The position numbers were made by a program, and so were the translations under genes. Of a stretch of DNA of 64,000 nt, positions 23,124 through 36,412 are shown one piece after another; the first letter of the stretch is position 1, and each line of letters opens with the position of its first letter. The DNA lies in NCBI RefSeq assembly GCF_012272835.1, contig NZ_JAAWWK010000006.1, positions 186,001 through 250,000 on the forward strand, written 5' to 3'. A model generated the notes under the pieces. It ran no database searches. It had not been told where the DNA came from and saw only the letters and a list, made by a program, of their open reading frames with translations. The stretch comes from Spongiibacter thalassae. Its GTDB lineage: Bacteria; Pseudomonadota; Gammaproteobacteria; Pseudomonadales; Spongiibacteraceae.

Positions 23124-23578
23124 GGCATCACTAGTCGGCTAAACCTGCTGGCATGGTATCACCGCAACCCCTTCGACTCTACGCTGACCAAAGGCCGCCA
23201 ACGCCGACCCCGGCAACCCCGCAATGAATGAAAATGGGGCATTTTCTCGACGAAGGGCCTGCTATAAAAACGGACATATGCTTCAAAAAGTCGCACCGAG
23301 AACATTCGGCAACACACAATCGGCAGTCACTTTGCCACTGTGGAATATACCTACCCGCAAAAAAGTGTGATCCATTCGACATAAATATTACTTATTTTTC
23401 CGCGGCAAATTCGCCCCATTATTTTCCATCGTCGAGATCAACACGTCACACCCGGTGTTTTTTCGCACCACAAAAAAACAAACACGCAAATTCCATACAT
23501 TTTCCGGCACCGCAAAAAAGCGGCAAATTTTTTACGTCTTTTACGCAATTTTGGATCAATTCCCGCGTTTTTTTTCTC
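23124..23578. other. AT-rich intergenic region, no gene seen
   Basis: Between mpl and the sigma-54 site lie about 455 bases with many A and T runs. Short open frames here overlap on both strands and lack ribosome-binding sites, so I call none. Three GCACC half-sites occur at 23293, 23465 and 23507; the last is followed, after five bases, by AAAGC, a poor match to the second half of an NtrC box (GCACC-N5-GGTGC). The region is the right length for an upstream activator site, but no good palindrome is visible. Confidence 0.4.
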
Positions 23579-23594
23579 TGGCACAGCGGTTGCT
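23579..23594 (+). promoter_or_regulatory. Sigma-54 promoter, redox operon
   Basis: TGGCACAGCGGTTGCT matches the -24/-12 consensus (GG, ten bases, GC; TTGC box intact). Transcription would start near 23605, leaving a leader of about 190 bases before the first gene at 23794. The same core, TGGCACAG-N3-TTGCT, occurs upstream of nirB and narK. Confidence 0.8.
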
Positions 23595-23793
23595 ATTACC
23601 CATTTGCGCCCAACTTGAACACGGAGAGCGCTTGTAAGCCAGCGATAAAGAACACGGTCACGATTCACTAAAAGTGTAAATAACAGTACTCCAAATGTGT
23701 CCGCATACAAAAAGGCATGACAAGGAAATACCGCAATTTGCGGGCGTAAGAACGCCGAAACAGGCGACCCAACTTTGGTATTGGAGTATTGAA

Positions 23794-24876
23794 ATGGTTA
23801 TCAAAAATCTATTTTCACGGCGCACCGCAAGCGCTCTGTTACTCACCGCCGCCAGTGCTACCGGCTCACAGCTCGCCAGTGCGGAATTGTTCAACACGGG
23901 CAAAGTCCTCGCCACCGGTGGGGTAAGTATGATCGATGGCGCAGGCGGCGGTGGTATCACACCCTGGGCGACCATCACCGGCTACGCCACCCGCGACGGT
24001 ATTAACGGCGACGTGCATTATACCTACGCTAACCTGCCCAACTACGCACTGAACTCGCTGGGTGTGGCGGTGGGTTTCTGGGACCGCTTCGAGCTGTCCT
24101 ACACCAAACAAATCCTTACCACCGGCTCGACATTTAACACCGTTGGTCTGGTCACCGACACCACCAGCAGCGCAGGCGGCGGTGCCGCCGGCGAAGCCAC
24201 CACCGCCGGTGGCGAGGGCGACGAATCCACGAACCCAGGTATCGAGCCATTCAACACCACCATTAAAATGGATGTTTACGGCGCGAAAATCCGCGTGTTC
24301 GGTGAAGCCATTTACGACTCGGACAACCTTATCCCCCAGGTGGCGATTGGTGCTTTTTACAAGGACAATGAAAACACTGATCTGCTGAAAACCCTGAAGG
24401 CCAATAAAGCCAAGGACTGGGAAGCCTATATCTCGGCGACCAAGATATTCTTCCCGATCAACACCCTGATCAACATCACCGCACGCTATACCTCGGCCAA
24501 CCAAACCGGTCTTACCGGCTTTGGTGGCCCCGATGGCAACGAGAAAGAAATCCGCCCTGAAATATCAATTGCCTACCTGCTGCGCAAAGACACGGCAATA
24601 GGCATGGAGTGGGCCCAGCACGGTGACAACCTGACTGGCGAAAGCGTGCAACTCGGCTCCGTAGATGCCACCGAAGCCGGCCCGGCTCTTCAGGCCACTG
24701 GACTGGGTGGCCTCAGCGGCACCCTCACCCAGGACGAAAGCGATTGGTACGACGCATTTATCGCTTACTTCCCCAGCAAAAACCTGTCGATAACAGCGGC
24801 CTACGCGATGCTCGGCAATATCACCATCACGCCGGAGCAACACGGCTTTTACCTGTCTCTCCAGGCCAGCTTCTAA
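23794..24876 (+). CDS. DUF3034-family outer-membrane-type protein
   Basis: 360-aa exported protein beginning MVIKNLFSRRTASALLL, with signal cleavage after QLASA. The mature start LFNTGKVLATGGVSMIDGA, then GGGGITPWATITGY, fits the DUF3034 family. Alternating amphipathic strands and a terminal Phe (YLSLQASF) suggest an outer-membrane beta-barrel. A Gly/Ala/Thr-rich stretch at about residues 125-150 is probably a loop. ATG 23794 has GGAG eight bases upstream. It is the first gene of a five-gene operon behind the sigma-54 site; the haemoglobin gene follows after 36 bp. The function of the family is unknown. Confidence 0.75.
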   Translation: MVIKNLFSRRTASALLLTAASATGSQLASAELFNTGKVLATGGVSMIDGAGGGGITPWATITGYATRDGINGDVHYTYANLPNYALNSLGVAVGFWDRFELSYTKQILTTGSTFNTVGLVTDTTSSAGGGAAGEATTAGGEGDESTNPGIEPFNTTIKMDVYGAKIRVFGEAIYDSDNLIPQVAIGAFYKDNENTDLLKTLKANKAKDWEAYISATKIFFPINTLINITARYTSANQTGLTGFGGPDGNEKEIRPEISIAYLLRKDTAIGMEWAQHGDNLTGESVQLGSVDATEAGPALQATGLGGLSGTLTQDESDWYDAFIAYFPSKNLSITAAYAMLGNITITPEQHGFYLSLQASF

Positions 24877-24912
24877 GCCCGGTTTAGCATTGAGACTCAT
24901 TAGGAGATTGCC

Positions 24913-25377
24913 ATGAAATCAACACTTAGAAATATCGTTATAAGCGGCGCTATCGCCCTCGCGACTACCAACTCAGCCTTCGCGCAAACCGGGCAAACAC
25001 GGACCCTGCCCGGACTGGACTCCGACGCACTGGAACAGTGGGGCGGTGAGGAAGGCATCCGCAATTGGGTAGAAAGCCTGTTCTACTACATTATGCTGGA
25101 TAACCGCATCAACCATATCTTCCGCGAATTCGGCAACATCGAGCGGCAGATTTTCCTCAACACACAGTTGGAACAGTTGGTACTGGGTGGCGACGTCGAG
25201 TACCAGGGGGCCAGCATGGAAGCCGCCCACGCCGATCTCGGCATTACGGTCACGCAGTTTAACGCCGTGGTAGAGGCGGCTTACAACGCCTGCGAACGCA
25301 TTAACGTGACCTATGAAGCCTGCAACCAGCTGATCGCTGCACTGGCTCCTTATGAGCGCGTCATTGTTACCAAGTAA
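24913..25377 (+). CDS. Exported group 1 truncated haemoglobin
   Basis: 154-aa protein with a clear type I signal peptide (cleavage after NSAFA, residue 25) followed by a truncated-globin fold: WGGEEGIRNWVES, the B-helix FYYIMLDNR with Tyr58/59 at the B10 place, the LGGDVEYQG turn and the F-helix AHADLGIT with His106 as proximal haem ligand. Two Cys (CERINVTYEAC) lie near the C-terminus, in position for a disulphide. Truncated haemoglobins are normally cytosolic and handle NO or O2; export to the periplasm is unusual. AGGAG lies six bases before ATG. Same operon as the flavin, PepSY and copper proteins. Confidence 0.8.
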   Translation: MKSTLRNIVISGAIALATTNSAFAQTGQTRTLPGLDSDALEQWGGEEGIRNWVESLFYYIMLDNRINHIFREFGNIERQIFLNTQLEQLVLGGDVEYQGASMEAAHADLGITVTQFNAVVEAAYNACERINVTYEACNQLIAALAPYERVIVTK

Positions 25378-25412
25378 CAGTCCGTGACATTTACAAAATC
25401 ACAAGGTACACC

Positions 25413-26021
25413 ATGAGTGATATGCATTTTTCTCCAGCAACTTTGGCGCCCGCAAGGGGCGCCCTTTTTTCCAGACTTGAACTGTCGAGTCGCTACCGGA
25501 GGACACTTCTAACACTACTATTATGCACTGGATGCCTGCTCAAGCTTTCGCCTGCTCAGGCATTTGAACTTTACAAAACCTTTCAAACACCCGACCTCTT
25601 CCTTGCAGAAGTGTTTAGCAATGACGTTCCCCAGGTCAAGGTACTGATGCTGAACAGTTCGTCCCAGCAACAAATCAGCGCGGTGTTTAATCGACCTTTC
25701 CCCCAGCAGCGGGTGCGCTATTGGGAGAAAGCCGGGCGCAGCGTGTGGATCTTCGACGACATCGGCAAGGAGGGCTATGTCCCCACCACCTGCGGTTTCG
25801 TTGTTGAAAACAATGCAATCAAACAGGCGAAAGTCCTGATCTATCGCGAATCTCGCGGCGAACAGGTTGGCGAAGATGCCTTCCTCAACCAACTCAAGGG
25901 CGCCAAAGCAGCGGGCAATAAGCTCGACGTGCAAGTGGACAATATCACCGGTGCCACTCTCTCAGTAAAAATGATGGAACGCATGGCTAGAACCGCGCTC
26001 GCGCTTGCAGCGCTGCGGTAG
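25413..26021 (+). CDS. Exported FMN-binding-domain protein
   Basis: 202 aa. A hydrophobic signal (TLLLCTGCLLKLSPAQA) is preceded by about 30 charged or polar residues, an unusually long n-region. The FMN_bind domain follows and carries DNITGAT at residues 176-182, the flavinylation motif in which an ApbE enzyme links FMN to the final Thr. Such domains act in periplasmic electron relays (as in NqrC and RnfG). ATG 25413 has AAGG six bases upstream. A later GGAGG at 25497 has no start codon behind it in this frame. A strong terminator-like hairpin lies within the first codons. No apbE is present in the window. Confidence 0.75.
   Translation: MSDMHFSPATLAPARGALFSRLELSSRYRRTLLTLLLCTGCLLKLSPAQAFELYKTFQTPDLFLAEVFSNDVPQVKVLMLNSSSQQQISAVFNRPFPQQRVRYWEKAGRSVWIFDDIGKEGYVPTTCGFVVENNAIKQAKVLIYRESRGEQVGEDAFLNQLKGAKAAGNKLDVQVDNITGATLSVKMMERMARTALALAALR
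25445..25470 (+). terminator. Intrinsic terminator inside the FMN-protein ORF
   Basis: GGCGCCC (25445-25451), loop GCAAG, GGGCGCC (25457-25463), one C and six T (25465-25470): a classic rho-independent terminator. It lies 67 bases after the haemoglobin stop, where an operon terminator would be expected, yet inside the reading frame of the next gene at codons 11-20. It could act as an attenuator relieved by translation, or reduce expression of the three distal genes. Confidence 0.8.
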
Positions 26022-26043
26022 CACATGGGTCAAGGAGAAAACA

Positions 26044-26931
26044 ATGTCCAGTTCTGGCAGCAGTCTCGCAGAGAAAATCGACCTGAAGTTAGCGGAAACG
26101 GAGGCTTCTATGCCTCCCACCGCGCAACCGGTCGCGAAGGCTAGATCAAACACCAAAAGGAAAGCCAAACGAAATCTGCAGCAGACCCTGCGCAGCTTTC
26201 ACCAACGCGGCGGCCTGTTCGCCTTTTTCTTTATGGCCTGGCTGGGCTTTAGCGGCATTCTGCTCAACCAAAGTGCCGACTGGGGGCTCGACGCTATCCG
26301 CGTAAAAGCCAGCAGTATCATGGCCTTTTATGGCCTGCACACCGAGCCGCCGAAATTCGGTTATTTCTCCGGGGACGCCTGGCTGGTGCCAACGCTGGAA
26401 AATACCGTGGTCAACGGCGAGCTCGCCGAGGAACACATTCCCTCACCGCTTGGCATGGTCAGTATTGGCAGTGACGATGCCGAATTGATTTTCATCGCCA
26501 ACCACGACAGCCTGAGCATATTCACCCCGGACGTGAAACGTCTCGACAAGCTGAGCGGCTATATGCTGCCACTGGGTCAAATTCGCCGCATTGGTGCCCA
26601 CAACGGTGGCATGGTAGCGCTACAGGGCGAGTCGGTTTATCTCAGCACCGATGGTATCTCCTGGGAAACCTACGCCGGCAACGGTAGCGATATTACCTGG
26701 TCCGAGACCTCGCCACTGCCAGAGAACATCGTCACACAGAGCTTACCCCACGCCCGACCCAGTGTGGCGCTGGAGCAGCTCCTGATCGACCTCCACAGCG
26801 GTCGCCTGTTCGGCAAGCTGGGCGCGTATTTCGTCAATCTGGTTGGCATTGTGTGTATCTGGCTGTCGGTCAGTGGGGTCTGGATGATGTGGCGCACTCA
26901 GAAAATGCGCAACAACCGCAGCAAGAACTAG
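26044..26931 (+). CDS. PepSY-associated membrane protein
   Basis: 295-aa inner-membrane protein of the PepSY_TM type. The first helix (about residues 57-75, FAFFFMAWLGFSGILLNQS) follows a FHQRGG motif, a large periplasmic domain rich in beta segments follows, and the second helix (about 260-284) comes after LLIDLHSGRLFG, the characteristic pre-helix motif. His residues near both membrane edges could ligate haem, as suggested for related flavin/haem reductases. ATG 26044 has AAGGAG six bases upstream. It sits 22 bp after the FMN-binding gene, so the two proteins may form a membrane electron-transfer pair. The partner and direction of electron flow are inferred. Confidence 0.75.
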   Translation: MSSSGSSLAEKIDLKLAETEASMPPTAQPVAKARSNTKRKAKRNLQQTLRSFHQRGGLFAFFFMAWLGFSGILLNQSADWGLDAIRVKASSIMAFYGLHTEPPKFGYFSGDAWLVPTLENTVVNGELAEEHIPSPLGMVSIGSDDAELIFIANHDSLSIFTPDVKRLDKLSGYMLPLGQIRRIGAHNGGMVALQGESVYLSTDGISWETYAGNGSDITWSETSPLPENIVTQSLPHARPSVALEQLLIDLHSGRLFGKLGAYFVNLVGIVCIWLSVSGVWMMWRTQKMRNNRSKN

Positions 26932-27031
26932 CTCCTGAATTCTAACTGACGTCCTGCCGCCGCCTGAATCGCGCGGCGGCATCGTCAAGACCTAGCGATT
27001 CGTCCCCTCCTGAAGCCCGAGGACTGCAACC

Positions 27032-27880
27032 ATGTCTGCTGACACCACCAAACCCTATCGACTGCTCTACCTCAGCGCCATTGCCACCGCCGTGATTGGC
27101 ATGACAATCGCCTGTGACCTACACGCCGACGATAGTACTGCAACGCGCAAAATCAAACTGGAGCACTTCAAGGCCAGCCCAAAAACCCTCGGAGTCAAAA
27201 CCGGCGGCACCGTCGAATGGTTTAACCAGGACGGCTTGACCCACTCGGTAGAACTGGAGGGCCAAACCCTTCAACGCATGCCTGCCAACAGCAGCTTTCG
27301 CTATCAGTTTAATGTGCCTGGCACTTACAGCTACCAGTGTGGGATACACGGCTCCATGCGCGGACAAATTGTTGTCGCCGACTCTATTCCCGCCGCGACA
27401 TCCCACAGCAACTATCGCGACGGCATGAGCAGCGCCACCGCTCGAAGCAAGCCGAGCAACACCGTCAAACCTCATCGCGCCGCGCACACCGAGCTCGGTG
27501 CGCAACAACAATACAACGACCCGGCACCCTACCAGCTTCAGCCGGAAGCCATTGAGCGGCGCAGTGCAACGCCGCCAAAGGCCTACCCCGGCCCCACGTC
27601 TCCTGCAGCTACCCCGGCCCCGGCGAAAAACCAGGGCGTGGTAAAAATAGTCGATTTCATGCGTTTTGAACCCACAGTGATCAGCGTGAAGGCCGGATCA
27701 ACAATACGCTGGGAAAACGAAGATGGCTCCAACCATATGATCCTGATTGATGGCAAAAAAGGCCCGCGAATTCGTCACGGTGGACACTATGAAACCGTGC
27801 TGACTACCCCTGGTGAACACGACTATATCTGCGCGATGCACGGCAAGAAAATGAGTGGCAAAATTATTGTGACCCCTTAG
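27032..27880 (+). CDS. Di-domain cupredoxin, exported
   Basis: 282-aa periplasmic protein with two plastocyanin-like domains. The first (about residues 38-115) has a complete type 1 copper set: His71 (LTHSVEL), Cys103, His106 and Met109 (CGIHGSM). A Pro/Ala-rich linker (about 120-205) joins it to the second, with His235 (SNHMI), Cys267, His270 and Met274 (CAMHGKKM). The N-terminus is a signal or anchor helix; a Cys in MTIACDLHA is a possible but weak lipobox. GAGGA precedes ATG by eight bases. Last gene of the redox operon, 100 bp after the PepSY gene. Probably a soluble electron carrier. Confidence 0.82.
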   Translation: MSADTTKPYRLLYLSAIATAVIGMTIACDLHADDSTATRKIKLEHFKASPKTLGVKTGGTVEWFNQDGLTHSVELEGQTLQRMPANSSFRYQFNVPGTYSYQCGIHGSMRGQIVVADSIPAATSHSNYRDGMSSATARSKPSNTVKPHRAAHTELGAQQQYNDPAPYQLQPEAIERRSATPPKAYPGPTSPAATPAPAKNQGVVKIVDFMRFEPTVISVKAGSTIRWENEDGSNHMILIDGKKGPRIRHGGHYETVLTTPGEHDYICAMHGKKMSGKIIVTP

Positions 27881-28095: not shown

Positions 28096-29304
28096 TTAGA
28101 AAGACACTCCCATCCACACCCACAGCTTATTGGTGTCTACGCCGAAGTCATCGGCGGAATAAGCGGCATACTTGATCCCGGCGTTGTAACTCTTGGCAAA
28201 CTTGCGGCTGTATACCACGTCAATTTCGCTACCGTAATCGGACATCGTCGGTGTATCTTCGTCGGCGCTGAATTCGTGGTACACCAGCCCCCACTGCCCA
28301 CCAGCCAGGCTGCCACCTACACTGGCATAGAGATCAACAAGGCCGGCTCCCGGCGTGCCAATAAACAGGTCTGCCCAGCCGTTAAATTTGTGCAAGGTGG
28401 CCAGAGGCGTGGCAAAGCCTACCGTGCCATCATCAGAACCAAGGACTTCGTAGCCAATTTTAGTGGTCAAGCCACCCGCAACGACGCCGCCCTCTAACAA
28501 CATGTAGCTGGTATCCGCATCACCTGCTGCCGACTCGGCCGACTGAGTAGCGTATTCCGCGGCATAGAGAAACTTCGTATCACCGGAGGCCTTGGCACCT
28601 TTGAGGCTGACACCCACGGTGTCCAGTCCGTTCTCTGCGGGAATATCCAGCTCCAGCATATAGGCGTAGGCCGTTACCTTGCCAATTGCTGTGTCGTAGG
28701 CCACGTTCATGAAATGGTCCTTGGAATCCAGATCCGCTGCCTCGGCAAAGATACGGTTACGCTGCTCGACATAGCCGTAGTTCAAGGTCAGTTTTTCACT
28801 GGGCTGATAGCTCATGGTCAAACCATCAAAGGTTTGACGATCTTGGCGCCAGCCAACATGACCGATAAAACGATGACCGTCATAGGTAATTACCTGACGC
28901 CCTAACTTAGCCACGAAGCTACCGCTTTTATATTTTACAAACGCCTGATCCAATTCAGTGGTTTCAGGATCGGCAATAACAGAATACTCTCCCGGGTTAT
29001 AACCGGCGGGGCCGACCGTATAGTCACCCTCACCTGCCACAATGCGACTGTCTTCAAATTCCAGCGTGGTCGAAAAACCGTTCACGCTTCCCGAGTTGTA
29101 ACCCAGCTTGGTGCGTAAGGTTAACGCTGTAGCGTCATCGGTCGCAGCGTTGTCATCTTCCACAGACTCGTAACGCAGACGCAAATCGCCATAGACTTTT
29201 CCCTCTGCCAGCGCCTCGCTAACAGTCTCTGCCCCTTGGGCCGCCGACATGGCGCTCAACAAAAAAATCGACGCGCTCAGCGCTTTCAGTTCAAAGGATT
29301 TCAT
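28096..29304 (-). CDS. Outer-membrane porin
   Basis: 402-aa beta-barrel protein with a signal peptide ending AAQGA, a start GKVYGDLRLRYESVEDD typical of alginate-export-type or OprD-like single-chain porins, many alternating strands and a C-terminal WVWMGVSF ending in Phe as the BAM complex requires. Acidic loops are abundant. It stands alone between the redox operon and narK, with its own terminator and a sigma-54-like site about 155 bp upstream, so its substrate is plausibly a nitrogen compound such as nitrate or nitrite. That substrate guess comes from context only. Confidence 0.8.
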   Translation of the reverse strand: MKSFELKALSASIFLLSAMSAAQGAETVSEALAEGKVYGDLRLRYESVEDDNAATDDATALTLRTKLGYNSGSVNGFSTTLEFEDSRIVAGEGDYTVGPAGYNPGEYSVIADPETTELDQAFVKYKSGSFVAKLGRQVITYDGHRFIGHVGWRQDRQTFDGLTMSYQPSEKLTLNYGYVEQRNRIFAEAADLDSKDHFMNVAYDTAIGKVTAYAYMLELDIPAENGLDTVGVSLKGAKASGDTKFLYAAEYATQSAESAAGDADTSYMLLEGGVVAGGLTTKIGYEVLGSDDGTVGFATPLATLHKFNGWADLFIGTPGAGLVDLYASVGGSLAGGQWGLVYHEFSADEDTPTMSDYGSEIDVVYSRKFAKSYNAGIKYAAYSADDFGVDTNKLWVWMGVSF

Positions 29305-29828: not shown

Positions 29829-31547
29829 CTAGCGGGCCAGGCTCCACAGCAACGCCAGGGTCAACACAAAGGATACTCCCTGCCAGAAACGCAGAGGATT
29901 GCGGTGAATCAAGGGCTGATACTGACGCTTGTCATAGACCGGGTTGGGCCGCTGCAAATCCTGCACAAACTCAGCAATATCGTGATAACGCAGTTCGGGG
30001 GAAATACTTAGCGCACGCTTCAAAGCGCTGTCCAACCAGAGTGGGATATGGGGATTGTACTGGCACGCCGACACATACTGCAGGCGCGCGAAAGCTGCTG
30101 CCGACTGACATTGCTCAAGCCGACCGTCGTAGACAGGCCTGCCGGTCAGCATTTCATAGATAATCACCGCAAGAGAAAACTGATCGGCCCGCGGCCCTGG
30201 TTTACGCGCCAACACATGCTCAGGGGCAGAGTACTGCGCCGTGCCCAGTACCCGGTCTCGCTCCACCGGCGAGGCAATTTCCGCCAGCCCCGCCACATGG
30301 CAGCTACCGAAATCGATAATTCGTACACTGCCATCGCGGGCGACCAAAATATTATCGGGTTTGATATCCTGATGCAGGGTGTCGCGACGATGCATGGCCT
30401 GCAAGCCTTTGGCAATCACCACCACCAGGCTGATCGCATCACTGACCGCCGGCTTGCGGTGAGACTTCATCCACTCGCCAAGGGTTTCACCGTCGATATA
30501 TTCCGCCAGATAGTACAGCGATGTTGGACGCTGGGGCGGCTCCACCACCTTCACCACCGCCGGGTGGTCGATGCGCTTCGCGATCCAGCTTTCCAGCACA
30601 AATCGCTCGATATAGGCCGCGTCGTCGATAAAATTCGGTGACGGGGTTTTCATCACGTAATATTTATCGGCGGTGGCATCGTAGACCTTATAGAGCTGGC
30701 TGCGCGGACTGGCATGAAGCTCGGCCTCAACCACCAATCCATCGAGAACCGCCCCGGCCTGCAATGGCGGCGGGAATGGTAGTTCGGTCAGCTTGCGATA
30801 GACATCATCGGCGTCCGCCAAGGGCAAGCCATCCACCACCAACAGCTGACAGCTCAGATTGTCATCACTGCCTGCGCCAAGCGCCGCGGCGATCAACGAC
30901 TCACAGGCCGCACTCAAGTGTTCACCGTGAGCAAGAATGATGCGAGTCATCTCCTCGCCACTCAAGCTGTCGTGAATACCATCGGTGGTCAACAGGAAAA
31001 TGTCGCCGCAACTGATATCCACTGCCCGGTAATCAACATCGAGATTTATATCCAGCCCCATCGCGCGGGTCAGGTAAGCCTGATTTTGATTGATACGCCG
31101 CGCGTGATCCCGGGTAAGCTGCTCCAGATGACCATCGCGCAGACGGTAAATTCGGCTGTCACCAACATGGAATAGATGGGCAACCTGGGACTTGAATACC
31201 GCAATACTCAGGGTAGAGACATAGCCTTTTTCCGCCTGGGCGTAACCCTGCCCCTGAGCAAAGAGCCAACGATTCAGCGCGTTCAACACCTGCTGCGCCG
31301 AACGCTTCACCGACCAGGAATCCGGAGTCGAGTAGTAATCACTGAGAAAGCCGGTGACACAACTCTCCGCCGCTTCCTTGCCAGCTTCCGCCGCTGACAC
31401 GCCGTCGGCAATTACTGCCACCGCACCCTTGGTGGTCAGCGACTGATCTTCGGGCACACAAATGCCAAGACTATCTTCATTTAACGGTTTTTGCCCAGCG
31501 CTGCTGCGCTGGGCAATACTGAGTTGAAGACCACCATCAAGATGCAA
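29829..31547 (-). CDS. PP2C phosphatase / Ser-Thr kinase fusion
   Basis: 572 aa with two opposing activities. Residues about 1-245 are a PP2C phosphatase (LNEDSLGI, AVIADGVSAAEAG, FHVGDSRIYRL, LLTTDGIHD supplying the metal Asp residues). Residues about 265-535 are a Hanks-type kinase with Lys in YYVMKTPS, catalytic loop HQDIKPDN and DFGS. A C-terminal helix (SFVLTLALLWSL) anchors it in the membrane. The start is a TTG with GGAG eight bases upstream; no early ATG exists. It follows narK by 32 bp, a pairing seen repeatedly in proteobacterial assimilatory nitrate loci, suggesting it tunes nitrate uptake or reduction. The target is unknown. Confidence 0.88.
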   Translation of the reverse strand: MHLDGGLQLSIAQRSSAGQKPLNEDSLGICVPEDQSLTTKGAVAVIADGVSAAEAGKEAAESCVTGFLSDYYSTPDSWSVKRSAQQVLNALNRWLFAQGQGYAQAEKGYVSTLSIAVFKSQVAHLFHVGDSRIYRLRDGHLEQLTRDHARRINQNQAYLTRAMGLDINLDVDYRAVDISCGDIFLLTTDGIHDSLSGEEMTRIILAHGEHLSAACESLIAAALGAGSDDNLSCQLLVVDGLPLADADDVYRKLTELPFPPPLQAGAVLDGLVVEAELHASPRSQLYKVYDATADKYYVMKTPSPNFIDDAAYIERFVLESWIAKRIDHPAVVKVVEPPQRPTSLYYLAEYIDGETLGEWMKSHRKPAVSDAISLVVVIAKGLQAMHRRDTLHQDIKPDNILVARDGSVRIIDFGSCHVAGLAEIASPVERDRVLGTAQYSAPEHVLARKPGPRADQFSLAVIIYEMLTGRPVYDGRLEQCQSAAAFARLQYVSACQYNPHIPLWLDSALKRALSISPELRYHDIAEFVQDLQRPNPVYDKRQYQPLIHRNPLRFWQGVSFVLTLALLWSLAR

Positions 31548-31579: not shown

Positions 31580-33052
31580 TCAGCTGACTTCAATCAAGGC
31601 AACACTGCCGTCTTCATTGTACTCAGCGATATGACCTTCGGGCTCTTCCATAAACTGCACCCCAAGAAAGACCACCGCCGCACAGCAGGCTATCACAATA
31701 AAGAATGTTGAGGAGCTGACAAAGCTCAGCGTTGTCAGGAATATCACCGCACCAACGTTACCATAGGCACCGGTCATTCCCGCAATCTGGCCGGTCATAC
31801 TGCGCTTGACCAGCGGCACAATTGCAAATACCGCACCTTCGCCGGCCTGCACAAAAAAGGAACAGCACATGGTTGCGACAACCGCCAACCAGATCGGCCA
31901 CGCACTGGTGATCTGACTCAGCACCAGATAGCCCACTGTCAGCCCGGCGATCAAAATCGTCAGTGAACGGCGGCGACCGAATCGATCTGACATATAACCG
32001 CCACTGGGACGCGCCACCAGATTCATAAAGGCAAAACCGGAGGCCAGCATACCGGCGGTCACCGCACCCAGATCAAAGGTTTCCATAAAGAACAGCGGCA
32101 GCATCGACACCACAGCCAACTCTGAGCCGAAGGTCGCCAGATAGGCCACGTTCAGAATCGCCACCTGCTTGAATTTGTACTTCTGCATTTCCGGGATCGG
32201 AACGTTGTTCAGTACATCGCTATTCACCCGTAAAATTTGACTGACCTGAAATACAAACAATACCGCCAACACCACGTAGAGCGCGATGGCCGCAACATCA
32301 TTGAGCAAACCCAGGTTGGTCGGCGACAATTTCCAGGTCAACACCGCCAGTGCGGCATACATTGGTACACACATCGCAATGTAGAACACCAGATCACGCT
32401 TGCTGGTTACTACCAACCCACCGCTTTTCTTCGGTTTGAAATACGTGGAGCCTTTGGGAGTATTACGCGCACGCCAGTAAAAGAAAAAACCATATAACAG
32501 GGCAACAACGCCGGTACTGGCAATGGCATAGCGCCAGCCATCATCACCGCCATAGATCAACGCCAGGGTCGGCAAGGTCATTGCGGCCGCTGCAGAACCG
32601 AAGTTTCCCCAGCCGCCGTAAACACCCTCAGCCAAACCCACCTGGCGAGCGGGAAACCACTCACCCACCAGACGAATACCGATAACAAAGCCGGCGCCGA
32701 TAAAGCCCATCAGGAAACGCAACAGTGCGATCATTTCGTAACTGTTGGCGAAGGCGAAAGCAATACACATTACCCCGCCGGATACCAGCAGCGCGCTGTA
32801 GATAATACGCGGCCCGAACCGATCTACTAACATACCCACTATGACGCGCGCGGGAATCGTCAATGCGACGTTCAGGATCATCAAGGCTTTGACTTGCTGC
32901 CCGGTTAAATCAAACGCCTCTTTAATAGAAGCCAGCATCGGTGCGTGGTTGAACCACACAACAAAGGTTAAAAAGAAGGCAAACCAGCTCAAGTGCAACA
33001 AGCGGATTCTTTCCTGCTTGAGATCGAGCACATTTAATGTAGAAGTAGACAT
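31580..33052 (-). CDS. narK: NarK-type nitrate/nitrite transporter
   Basis: 490-aa major-facilitator protein with twelve membrane helices. The first helix segment [14 protein letters not shown] and [19 protein letters not shown], then [13 protein letters not shown] and [15 protein letters not shown], carry the NarK nitrate signatures including the conserved Arg. The frame is open to 33130, but ATG 33052 has GGAG seven bases upstream. First gene of an operon with the phosphatase/kinase fusion, behind its own sigma-54 site, and divergent from nirBD. Assimilatory uptake is likely because nirBD, not narGHI, is adjacent. Confidence 0.92.
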
Positions 33053-33101: not shown

Positions 33102-33117
33102 AGCAAAGGCTGTGCCA
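33102..33117 (-). promoter_or_regulatory. Sigma-54 promoter, narK
   Basis: Minus-strand TGGCACAGCCTTTGCT fits GG-N10-GC exactly. Transcription would start near 33091, about 40 bases before narK. It is one half of a divergent pair with the nirB promoter. Confidence 0.8.
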
Positions 33118-33371: not shown

Positions 33372-33387
33372 TGGCACAGGTCTTGCT
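33372..33387 (+). promoter_or_regulatory. Sigma-54 promoter, nirBD
   Basis: TGGCACAGGTCTTGCT fits GG-N10-GC. Transcription would start near 33398, giving an 80-base leader before nirB at 33477. Confidence 0.82.
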
Positions 33388-33476: not shown

Positions 33477-36029
33477 ATGAGCAACCCACAACGCCTGTTG
33501 ATAGTCGGGAATGGCCCGGTCGGCCATCAGTTCCTGGAGTCCATCGTCGAAAGCGGCAAGGCTGGCAATTTCGATATCACCGTTATCGGCGAAGAACCCC
33601 GCGCCGCCTACGACCGCGTGCACCTCACCGCCTGGTTCGAAACCCGCCAAGCCGAATCGCTGAATATGGTGGCTGAGGGCTTTTATGCAAACAATGGCAT
33701 TAAGGCGCAAACTTCCGAAAAGGTCGTGAGCATAGATCGCGCGGCTAAGGTGGCTACCACCGACCTGGGCAACACCTACCCCTACGACAAATTGATCCTG
33801 TCTACCGGCTCATACCCCTTTGTGCCACCGGTGCCGGGTCACGACCGTGAAAACTGCTTTGTCTACCGTACTATTGAGGACCTCGAAGCGATCACCGCCG
33901 CGGCCCAAAACGCCAAGGTCGGCGCTGTTGTCGGCGGCGGCCTGCTGGGTCTTGAAGCCGCCAAGGCGATTATGGATCTTGGACTGCAAACCCACGTTAT
34001 TGAATTCGCCCCACGCTTGATGGCCGTTCAGGTCGACGACGGCGGTGGCAACCTTCTGCGCCGCAAAATCGAAGACCTCGGCGTGAAGGTACACACCCAG
34101 AAAAACACCCAGAATATCGGTGACGGCGAAAACTGCCTGCACAAGCTGAGTTTCGCCGATGGCGAGGAACTGGAAACCGACATTCTGGTATTTTCCGCAG
34201 GCATTCGCCCCCAGGATGCACTGGCACACCAGTGCGCGCTTGAGGTAGGTCAGCGCGGCGGCATTGTGATTAACAACAACTGCCAAACTTCCGACGACGA
34301 TATCTACGCCATCGGTGAGTGCGCCCTGTGGAACCAGCGTATTTTCGGTCTGATCGCGCCCGGCTGGGATATGGCCCGTGTTGCCGCAGACCACGTTCTC
34401 GGCGGTATTGAAGGCAAACAGTTCAACGGCGCAGACATGAGCACCAAGCTCAAGCTGATGGGTGTCGATGTAGCATCCATTGGCGACGCCCACGCCAATA
34501 CGCCAGGGGCAAAATCCTACACCTATATCAACGAGCAGACAGAGGTGTATAAAAAAATCGTCGTCAGCGAGGACGGCAAGCACCTGCTGGGCTCAGTACT
34601 GGTTGGCGACGCCGAGGACTACGGCAACCTGCTGCAATTTGCGCTGAACAAGATTGAACTGCCAGAACACCCCGAGGCGATGATTCTGCCCAATCTCGAC
34701 GGCAGTGCCAGCGTCGGTCTCGGTGTCGATGCACTGCCCGATGTCGCCCAAATCTGTAGCTGTAACAACGTCAGCAAGGGCGATATCTGCGCGGCCGTAC
34801 AGGGCGGCGCCATGACCGTAGGCGACCTAAAAGCCTGCACCAAGGCGGCAACCACCTGCGGCGGCTGTACCGCGCTGGTCGGCCAGGTACTGAACGCCGA
34901 GCTGACCAAGCTGGGTGTAGAGGTCAACACCGACCTGTGTGAACACTTCCCCTATACTCGCCAGGAGATTTACCATCTGGTCCGCGTCGGTGAAATCAAA
35001 ACCTTTGACGAGCTGATCAGCAAACACGGCAAAGGCAAGGGCTGCGATATTTGCAAACCCACCGCCGCGTCAATTTTCGCCTCCTGCTGGAACGACTATA
35101 TTCTCGAGACGTCCCACGCCGGCCTGCAAGACACCAATGACCGCTTCCTGGCGAATATGCAGAACAACGGCACCTTCTCAGTGGTGCCGCGCATGGCTGG
35201 CGGCGAAGTCACCCCCGACGGTTTGATTGCCGTGGGTAGCGTCGCCAAAAAATACAATCTCTATACCAAAATTACCGGTGGCCAGCGGGTCGACCTGTTT
35301 GGCGCCACCGTCGATCAGCTGCCGCTGATCTGGAAAGAGCTGATTGACGCTGGTTTTGAAAGCGGACACGCCTACGGCAAATCGCTGCGCACAGTGAAAT
35401 CCTGCGTTGGCTCCACCTGGTGCCGCTACGGGGTTCAGGACAGCGTTGGCCAGGCCATTGATCTGGAAAACCGCTACAAAGGTCTGCGCTCTCCCCACAA
35501 ACTGAAAATGGCGGTCTCCGGCTGTACCCGCGAATGCGCCGAAGCCCAGAGCAAGGACGTAGGCGTAATCGCCACCGAAAAGGGCTGGAACCTTTACCTC
35601 TGCGGCAACGGCGGCATGAAACCCCGCCACGCGGATCTCTTTGCCTCGGATATCGACACCGCCACCCTGATCAAATACGTCGATCGCTTCCTGATGTTCT
35701 ACGTTCGTACCGCTGACCGCCTGCAACGCACCTCGGTGTGGATGGAAAACCTCGAGGGCGGACTGGATTACCTGCGCAAGGTCATTATCGACGACTCACT
35801 GGGTATCTGCGACGAACTCGAAGCCGAGATGCAGCATGTCATCAACAGCTACCAGTGCGAGTGGAAAACCACCATCGAAAATGAAGAGAAGGTCAAACAA
35901 TTCCGCAGCTTCGTCAACGCCGAGCAGGGCGACAAGGAAATTGTTTTTGTTCAGGAGCGCGGCCAGATTCGCCCCGCCACTGATGAAGAGAAGCGACTCA
36001 ACAGCAACCTGATCGCTGTGGCTTCCTGA
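33477..36029 (+). CDS. nirB: NADH nitrite reductase, large subunit
   Basis: 850 aa; reduces nitrite to ammonium in the cytoplasm. In order: FAD/NAD(P)H domain (LLIVGNGPVGHQF, GAVVGGGLLGLEAAK), BFD-like [2Fe-2S] domain (CSCNNVSKGDICAAV and CGGCTALVG) with a second Cys pair, a ferredoxin half-domain, then the sirohaem/[4Fe-4S] module with Cys near 642/648 (CVGSTWC) and 682/686 (CTREC). AAGGAAG lies before ATG 33477; the frame is open 36 codons upstream, but that start would be unusual. nirD follows after 65 bp. No nitrate reductase gene (nasA) is in the window. Confidence 0.96.
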   Translation: MSNPQRLLIVGNGPVGHQFLESIVESGKAGNFDITVIGEEPRAAYDRVHLTAWFETRQAESLNMVAEGFYANNGIKAQTSEKVVSIDRAAKVATTDLGNTYPYDKLILSTGSYPFVPPVPGHDRENCFVYRTIEDLEAITAAAQNAKVGAVVGGGLLGLEAAKAIMDLGLQTHVIEFAPRLMAVQVDDGGGNLLRRKIEDLGVKVHTQKNTQNIGDGENCLHKLSFADGEELETDILVFSAGIRPQDALAHQCALEVGQRGGIVINNNCQTSDDDIYAIGECALWNQRIFGLIAPGWDMARVAADHVLGGIEGKQFNGADMSTKLKLMGVDVASIGDAHANTPGAKSYTYINEQTEVYKKIVVSEDGKHLLGSVLVGDAEDYGNLLQFALNKIELPEHPEAMILPNLDGSASVGLGVDALPDVAQICSCNNVSKGDICAAVQGGAMTVGDLKACTKAATTCGGCTALVGQVLNAELTKLGVEVNTDLCEHFPYTRQEIYHLVRVGEIKTFDELISKHGKGKGCDICKPTAASIFASCWNDYILETSHAGLQDTNDRFLANMQNNGTFSVVPRMAGGEVTPDGLIAVGSVAKKYNLYTKITGGQRVDLFGATVDQLPLIWKELIDAGFESGHAYGKSLRTVKSCVGSTWCRYGVQDSVGQAIDLENRYKGLRSPHKLKMAVSGCTRECAEAQSKDVGVIATEKGWNLYLCGNGGMKPRHADLFASDIDTATLIKYVDRFLMFYVRTADRLQRTSVWMENLEGGLDYLRKVIIDDSLGICDELEAEMQHVINSYQCEWKTTIENEEKVKQFRSFVNAEQGDKEIVFVQERGQIRPATDEEKRLNSNLIAVAS

Positions 36030-36094
36030 TCCACCTACAACACACGACCTACGGGCGCCAAGCGCGCCCGCAGTAAAGAACGGAGAAATACCCG

Positions 36095-36412
36095 ATGAGC
36101 TGGACAACAGTTTGCTCGCTTGACGACATTCTACCCAACGCCGGTGTAGCTGCACTGGTGAACGACACCCAGATCGCCCTGTTTCGTGTCGACGACAAGG
36201 TCTACGCCCTGGCCAACAAAGACCCCTTCAGCAATGCCAATGTGCTGTCGCGGGGCATTGTCGGCAATCTGCAAGACACACTGGTAGTCGCCTCCCCCAT
36301 CTACAAGCAGCATTTCAGTCTTGAAGCAGGTACCTGCCTTGAAGACGATACCGTCTCTGTGCCCTGTTACGCAGCGCGCACCGAGGGTGGCCTGGTGCAG
36401 GTCCAGATTTAA
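36095..36412 (+). CDS. nirD: Nitrite reductase small subunit
   Basis: 105-aa Rieske-fold subunit without the Cys/His cluster ligands, as expected for NirD. It begins MSWTTVCSLDDILPNAGVAA and contains ALANKDPFSNANVLSRGIV and SPIYKQHFSLEAGTC. GGAG lies nine bases before ATG. A terminator follows at 36446, so nirBD ends here. Confidence 0.94.
   Translation: MSWTTVCSLDDILPNAGVAALVNDTQIALFRVDDKVYALANKDPFSNANVLSRGIVGNLQDTLVVASPIYKQHFSLEAGTCLEDDTVSVPCYAARTEGGLVQVQI

Follow-up and report, generated by a model that had tools for sequence, protein, structure and literature searches.

A sigma-54-linked gene set joining a DUF3034-haemoglobin pair to an FMN-PepSY pair points to a possible undescribed route of nitrogen-oxide handling in Zhongshania

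Results

Architecture of the operon

The operon described here lies in a 64,000-nucleotide (nt) stretch of the Spongiibacter thalassae genome, hereafter the window (contig NZ_JAAWWK010000006.1, positions 186,001 to 250,000; G000:C10:186001-250000 within a 4.4 Mb genome). Five plus-strand genes, spanning 23794-27880 and separated by gaps of 36, 35, 22 and 100 nt, encode a DUF3034 protein, a group 1 truncated haemoglobin (trHb1), a flavin mononucleotide (FMN)-binding protein, a PepSY_TM membrane protein and a di-cupredoxin (Table 1). DUF3034, FMN_bind, PepSY_TM and both cupredoxin domains pass their Pfam cut-offs, and the globin is assigned through solved trHb1 structures, confirming the five families named in the first-pass annotation. 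Its span of 23579..27880 places the genes correctly, with the first start at 23794 and position 23579 belonging to a sigma-54 site. No terminator-like site was seen in the 100-nt gap before the cupredoxin gene, and sigma-70-like promoters around the operon show no excess (2 versus 3.0 in shuffled sequences). A terminator-like GC-rich hairpin followed by CTTTTTT occupies 25445-25463, just within the FMN gene.

Table 1. Positions of the operon, its promoter elements and the adjoining nitrate/nitrite locus in the window.
Feature	Position	Strand	Evidence
Possible NtrC-like activator sites, two GCAC half-sites	23465-23468 and 23507-23510	+	weak in window
Sigma-54 promoter TGGCACAGCGGTTGCT	23579..23594	+	perfect TGGCACN5TTGCW
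DUF3034 protein, predicted outer-membrane beta-barrel	23794..24876	+	PF11231, E 2.4e-81
Group 1 truncated haemoglobin, signal-like N-terminus	24913..25377	+	PDB trHb1 matches, E 1.7e-8
FMN_bind protein with ApbE-type motif TGAT	25413..26021	+	PF04205, E 3e-6
Two-helix PepSY_TM membrane protein	26044..26931	+	PF03929, E 4e-12
Di-cupredoxin, two type-1 copper domains	27032..27880	+	Cupredoxin_1 in two stretches, 1e-17
PP2C phosphatase-Ser/Thr kinase fusion of the nitrate locus	29829..31547	-	Pfam
MFS transporter, NarK-type by name	31580..33052	-	MFS_1; NarK is the label of the first-pass annotation and ours
Sigma-54 site of narK	33102..33117	-	
Sigma-54 site of nirB	33372..33387	+	
NirB assimilatory nitrite reductase	33477..36029	+	TIGR02374 over cut-off, 1123.9 bits; Pfam
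NirD	36095..36412	+	Rieske_2

Of 46 DUF3034 family sequences, 44 have phenylalanine as the last residue, and positions -1, -3, -5, -7 and -9 are hydrophobic in at least 0.89 of the set. This C-terminal pattern is the beta-signal of outer-membrane beta-barrels, and such a barrel is predicted for the family. A 38-residue partial match of the DUF3034 profile to the solved structure Ika8 (E 7.8e-5), in which no stretch passes alone, was not used. The window globin scores 19.7 bits against Bac_globin, 1.3 below the 21-bit cut-off; its membership in trHb1 is given by the match to solved group 1 structures together with a proximal His, and all 71 aligned rows, that of the window among them, keep His106. 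Signal-like N-termini were read by eye on the DUF3034, globin and FMN proteins, at which a 19-residue hydropathy scan marked no segment, and all three are apparently exported.

The FMN protein carries TGAT at residues 179-182, fitting the ApbE-type flavinylation motif [S/T]GA[S/T] and invariant in all 12 Zhongshania sequences; its profile matched nothing in the PDB at 0.01. The Zhongshania operon itself lacks ApbE, which is encoded elsewhere in all 18 genomes of the genus sample. Hydropathy places two hydrophobic segments in the PepSY protein (56-74 and 255-273), where two helices had been annotated. His53 and His251, one per helix, are the sole invariant His residues across nine aligned sequences, and the protein weakly matches FoxB (7abw), its helices aligning to those of FoxB with a weak fit for the first. 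Paired His on both membrane faces are not found within one chain of the window protein; a dimer would be needed to form the pairs. The two-His pattern recurs in 14 of 19 FMN-linked PepSY loci of the class and is missing from the other five. In the cupredoxin, the motifs CGIHGSM and CAMHGKKM (CxxH..M) and two Cupredoxin_1 stretches agree with the two-domain copper protein of the annotation.

Conservation and modular origin

Within the genus sample of 18 Zhongshania genomes, window genome included, DUF3034 occurs in 12, and all 12 (11 relatives plus the window) keep the order DUF3034, globin, FMN, PepSY. The cupredoxin gene comes next after PepSY in 10 of these loci; in genomes G003 and G014 it lies ~11.5 kb and ~10.6 kb beyond DUF3034, the G014 match being one domain in a 127-residue frame. 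At E 1e-10, relatives of the cupredoxin (P0005) are found in exactly the 12 DUF3034-positive genomes and in none of the other six. The cupredoxin is the least fixed member of the set.

A wider survey, composed of the best 80 of 413 confirmed DUF3034 loci, revealed a near-constant partner: a globin lies at most 700 nt from DUF3034 in 78 loci, on the same strand in 77, and is absent nearby in L127 and L142. Six loci (L084, L099, L118, L122, L138 and L146; e.g. L099:6503-7810) encode both in one open frame; the fusion hosts are Duganella, Rugamonas, Pseudoduganella and an Oxalobacteraceae metagenome-assembled genome (MAG), with one fusion over both Pfam cut-offs and two examined by translation. 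Cupredoxin-like matches occur in 36 of the 80 loci.

Eight of the 80 loci contain the joined form of DUF3034, globin, FMN and PepSY: three from Zhongshania, and L071 (Nevskia), L072 (a gammaproteobacterial MAG), L073 (Panacagrimonas), L074 (a Salinisphaerales MAG) and L077 (Solimonas), which we label Nevskiales-like, with taxonomy consulted for two of these names. The four-gene order is kept in all five of the latter, with a NasT gene between globin and FMN in L077. No FMN, PepSY or sigma-54 site is present in any of the 72 other DUF3034 loci. FMN-type DUF3034 proteins (the window and seven joined loci, L075 being left out of the tree) form one clade with support 1.0, and 20 operon-linked FMN sequences, three duplicates among them, form another with support 0.997.

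The FMN-PepSY half has its own distribution. In a class sample of 369 genomes, own included, an FMN relative occurs in 79 and DUF3034 in 18; five other genomes hold both, on different contigs. The five-gene set as a widespread system was rejected on these counts. A PepSY match lies beside every one of the top 19 FMN relatives from beyond the genus; ApbE adjoins one of them and a Porin_O_P gene one, and Pfam gave nothing for a second porin-like protein among these loci.

By these sequence comparisons the operon is a DUF3034-globin module joined to an FMN-PepSY module, both older than the union, with the DUF3034-globin pair much the wider. The single five-gene system of the first-pass annotation is real and conserved, its first four genes keeping their order in related genomes and in the Nevskiales-like loci, but it consists of two joined modules plus the less fixed cupredoxin.

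In the Nevskiales-like group, ApbE follows PepSY in four of five loci (L071, L072, L073 and L077; Pfam confirmation for L071). Relatives of an OmpA-cupredoxin protein of L071 are present in all five, with both domains found by Pfam in the three scanned; such proteins would bind copper at the outer membrane or the peptidoglycan. In L071, L072 and L073, sigma-54-like sites, positioned by eye, also precede the OmpA-cupredoxin genes within a few hundred nt.

Sigma-54 promoter and leader

The 4.4 Mb genome contains 14 perfect sigma-54 sites, compared with one match to a reversed control pattern. They include the sites of this operon, narK, nirB, the ammonium transporter gene amtB and the first gene of a TPR-ExbBD-TonB cluster; the amtB site is an identical 16-mer to that of the operon, and the transporter and other names were assigned by eye. 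Some of the remaining perfect sites fall within reading frames and are probably chance matches. A -24/-12 site occupies the matching place upstream of DUF3034 in all 12 genus loci, window included, and in none of five outgroup loci, upholding the annotated promoter. Across the survey, a site within 400 nt marks 8/8 FMN-type and 0/72 other DUF3034 loci (Fisher p 3e-11, ignoring kinship); when the scan was relaxed and run on 77 loci with 500 nt each, one match was added, in L088 at -472.

GCAC/GTGC half-sites, which going by the NtrC consensus may be NtrC sites, number 50 over the 12 genus promoters versus 18.6 (standard deviation 3.9) in shuffled sequences, with two in the window. Their positional peak at -60 reaches 0.86 against a null maximum of 0.54 and includes 10 of 12 rows; the nearer copy in the window is at -72.

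The leader occupies 23603-23793 in the window and measures 145-191 nt across relatives (L027 is longer, with an uncertain start). In several Zhongshania, though not in the window, base pairing between the conserved 5' end of the leader and the Shine-Dalgarno region is predicted. Six of the 12 genus loci (L024, L026, L030-L033) have another sigma-54 site in divergent orientation, ~600-640 nt upstream of that of the operon; in five of the six it stands in front of a gene for a small protein that is rich in Gly/Leu and begins with a signal-like segment. Rfam gave no match at gathering scores on five loci.

Nitrogen genes around the operon

The annotation placed narK and nirBD beside the operon: nirBD is present at 33477-36412, and narK is an MFS transporter carrying that name as a label. 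The distance between nirB and DUF3034 is 4-15 kb in nine of the 12 genus genomes; in G001, G010 and G015 it is the TPR-TonB cluster, not the operon, that stands beside narK and nirB. All five Nevskiales-like genomes encode nirB, 11-18 kb away in two and on another contig in three.

NasT relatives occur in four of the five Nevskiales-like loci and NasS in two (Pfam on two NasT and one NasS); among the 72 other loci only L080 has a NasS match, a distant one. All five leaders contain a terminator before a T run, at -25.6 to -30.9 kcal/mol, and an upstream terminator of this kind recurs in 1/72 other DUF3034 loci (L094). In NasT-type (ANTAR) antitermination leaders, a hairpin with an AxxGxx hexaloop stands ahead of the terminator and a NasT gene is close by, an arrangement absent from the 12 Zhongshania leaders. 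One to three AxxGxx hexaloop hairpins occur per Nevskiales-like leader, versus shuffled means of 0.11-0.18, and some of those in L071, L072 and L077 overlap the terminator arm or form its loop. In Paracoccus, NasS-NasT is reported to govern nitrate assimilation through antitermination (PMC5424462). The only ANTAR match in the window genome lies at G000:C7:462707-462862, adjoined by an open frame that appears NasS-like by eye.

A TPR-TPR-ExbB-ExbD-ExbD-TonB cluster with its own perfect sigma-54 site was resolved at 6580-15039 of L174 (G000:C6:835000-851500). Within the stretches examined, part or all of such a cluster stands beside the operon in 8/12 genus and 3/5 Nevskiales-like loci and in 0/72 other DUF3034 loci. 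An Alginate_exp-type porin gene at 28096-29304 of the window is convergent with the operon, and its relatives come after the operon in L032 and L033.

Discussion

Proposed function

We propose, with a probability of roughly 0.45, that the operon encodes a nitrogen-regulated cell-envelope redox system that would act as a nitric oxide (NO) dioxygenase or nitrogen-oxide scavenger. That it works in the envelope, in redox chemistry and under nitrogen control is probable; the NO dioxygenase step taken by itself is more tentative, somewhat short of even odds. The link to nitrogen oxides, suggested by the first-pass annotation, is strengthened by the sigma-54 sites on narK, nirB and amtB, the proximity of nirB in most genus genomes, and the NasT genes and leader terminators of the Nevskiales-like group. 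This nitrogen setting, together with a trHb1, points to NO dioxygenation. Chlamydomonas THB1 is described as an NO dioxygenase reduced by nitrate reductase (PMC4620153), and raphidophyte algae are reported to fuse nitrate reductase and haemoglobin (PMC9837059).

Sequence comparison shows an old DUF3034-trHb1 unit that in this branch acquired an FMN protein of the flavinylation type and a PepSY protein that is half-size and cytochrome-like, along with nearby copper carriers and a sigma-54 site, mostly beside nitrite-assimilation genes. In the proposed mechanism, the PepSY protein would form a homodimer in which two b haems are bound across the inner membrane by pairs of His53 and of His251, relaying electrons to the flavin from quinol or a cytoplasmic donor. 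The flavin, directly or via the cupredoxin, could then re-reduce ferric globin beneath the barrel, with the cupredoxin as a side carrier or a link to the outer membrane. The globin would convert NO and O2 to nitrate, usable by the nitrate transporter and assimilatory reductases, so that NO arising from nitrate or nitrite use would be removed or recovered as nitrogen.

Several observations weigh against this proposal. Characterised PepSY_TM proteins, as described in PMC13038864, reduce ferri-siderophores or serve copper enzymes, not NO. DUF3034-globin pairs elsewhere often stand with ECF (extracytoplasmic function) sigma factors or GGDEF/EAL proteins; because the pair keeps this other company, its core role need not concern nitrogen. 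The globin has Tyr at position 59 in 9/9 FMN-type rows, a feature that is not general otherwise. Since FMN-type DUF3034 forms one clade and three of its eight loci come from one genus, the 8/8 versus 0/72 contrast in sigma-54 sites may reflect a single origin. nirB is found in 18/18 genus genomes, six of them without the operon, so the operon is not needed for nitrite assimilation, and co-occurrence of operon and nirB in the genus carries no signal. On the regulatory side, neither the window nor most genus promoters have a significant full NtrC palindrome, Zhongshania leaders contain no terminator (0/12 below -20 kcal/mol), and the only AxxGxx hairpin of L073 lies behind its terminator.

Alternative explanations

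A periplasmic iron or copper reductase is an unlikely alternative: PepSY and flavin would reduce metal for uptake, the cupredoxin would handle copper, and the globin would buffer oxygen or haem. FoxB and its relatives are described as PepSY_TM ferrisiderophore reductases and CrpH as supporting copper oxidases (PMC13038864), and PepSY-like flavinylated clusters are reported to contain VIT1 in 167 and a TonB receptor in 231 cases (PMC8238504). The two type-1 copper domains and the TPR-ExbBD-TonB genes beside the operon (8/12 genus, 3/5 Nevskiales-like loci) fit the same idea. Its weak points are sigma-54 sites that group the operon with narK, nirB and amtB, a near-constant DUF3034 partner that is a globin, and the lack of a metal transporter noted beside the operon, among neighbours that were clustered and in part scanned. 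The globin could instead act as a nitrite or hydroxylamine reductase, or as a peroxidase, on the same electron path. The adjoining nitrate/nitrite locus and a peroxidase activity reported for a truncated haemoglobin speak for this reading, which we consider improbable; the tested sequence features neither favour it over NO dioxygenation nor exclude it.

Somewhat less probable still is a relay for sensing oxygen or NO, in which globin and barrel would detect the gas and the carriers report redox state without catalysis. In its favour, 19 of the 80 DUF3034 loci contain a GGDEF/EAL cluster and 24 an ECF-sigma-like one, the first label having been checked on one member (dCache-GGDEF-EAL) and the second being our own reading. 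Neither cluster, however, occurs in any of the eight FMN-type loci, and no kinase or regulator is among the five genes. That two unrelated operons merely abut is very improbable and was rejected: FMN-PepSY and DUF3034-globin are apart in most sampled genomes, but they are joined in conserved order in 17 (12 of the genus, five Nevskiales-like), both halves are monophyletic (support 1.0 and 0.997), and a single sigma-54 site stands in front of genes with short gaps.

The envelope redox system proposed above can also be extended to an outer-membrane haemoglobin machine that assimilates NO, a version we regard as unlikely. Here the barrel would admit or position NO, the globin would make nitrate, a membrane cytochrome, a covalent flavin and copper carriers would make up its dedicated reductase, and nitrogen limitation would switch the set on with nitrate uptake. 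The wider DUF3034-haemoglobin unit would then represent a general surface-haemoglobin class whose partners differ by branch.

Comparison with known systems

The closest described relatives of the FMN-PepSY half are the PepSY-like flavinylated systems of Meheust et al. 2021 (PMC8238504), in which a flavinylation substrate is encoded beside a PF03929/PF16357 membrane protein and some clusters include ApbE. The operon fits the cluster rule of that work, a PF03929 or PF16357 protein in a cluster with FMN_bind or ApbE, its FMN_bind and PepSY_TM genes being adjacent and both over cut-off. The definition further includes a signal peptide on the flavinylated protein, for which the window protein has a signal-like N-terminus read by eye and no segment in the hydropathy scan. 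The described clusters differ in carrying DUF2271 in 2833 and DUF4198 in 1500 of 3220 cases, with iron roles proposed, and in three transmembrane helices, a feature outside the operational definition, compared with two by hydropathy in the window protein. Globin, cupredoxin and DUF3034 have no occurrence in the main text of that paper. The PepSY protein resembles FoxB and CrpH (7abw; PMC13038864) in helix motifs with conserved His and in its weak alignment to FoxB; those proteins have at least four helices, whereas the window protein has two, and its neighbour is a flavin protein where theirs is a siderophore or copper receptor.

The globin recalls THB1 and the raphidophyte hybrids as a trHb1 in nitrate metabolism that needs a flavin reductase (PMC4620153; PMC9837059). 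THB1 is described as cytosolic and reduced by nitrate reductase (PMC4620153), whereas the window globin has a signal-like N-terminus and is encoded with a barrel, PepSY and cupredoxin. Pentahaem cytochrome-truncated haemoglobin fusions of cable bacteria likewise join a truncated haemoglobin to a periplasmic electron carrier, which there is a multihaem cytochrome in a proposed terminal oxidase; PepSY and cupredoxin are unmentioned in that text (PMC11976967). The other DUF3034-globin loci share the DUF3034 and globin core, often with a cupredoxin, and differ in lacking FMN, PepSY and the sigma-54 site.

In the open-licence PMC literature searched, DUF3034-globin loci were not found described, DUF3034 surfacing in works titled on retrons and Streptomyces; it was absent from the matches listed for FMN-binding/PepSY combinations, and none was found for Zhongshania with truncated haemoglobin. 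The gene set points to an as yet undescribed route by which nitrogen oxides such as NO could be dealt with at the cell surface. The comparison gives DUF3034 a partner and a testable role, links haemoglobins with a protein of outer-membrane type across many proteobacteria, and brings together nitrogen control and an electron path through flavin and PepSY. Should the NO reading be right, some aquatic bacteria could feed on NO or render it harmless while it is still outside the cell.

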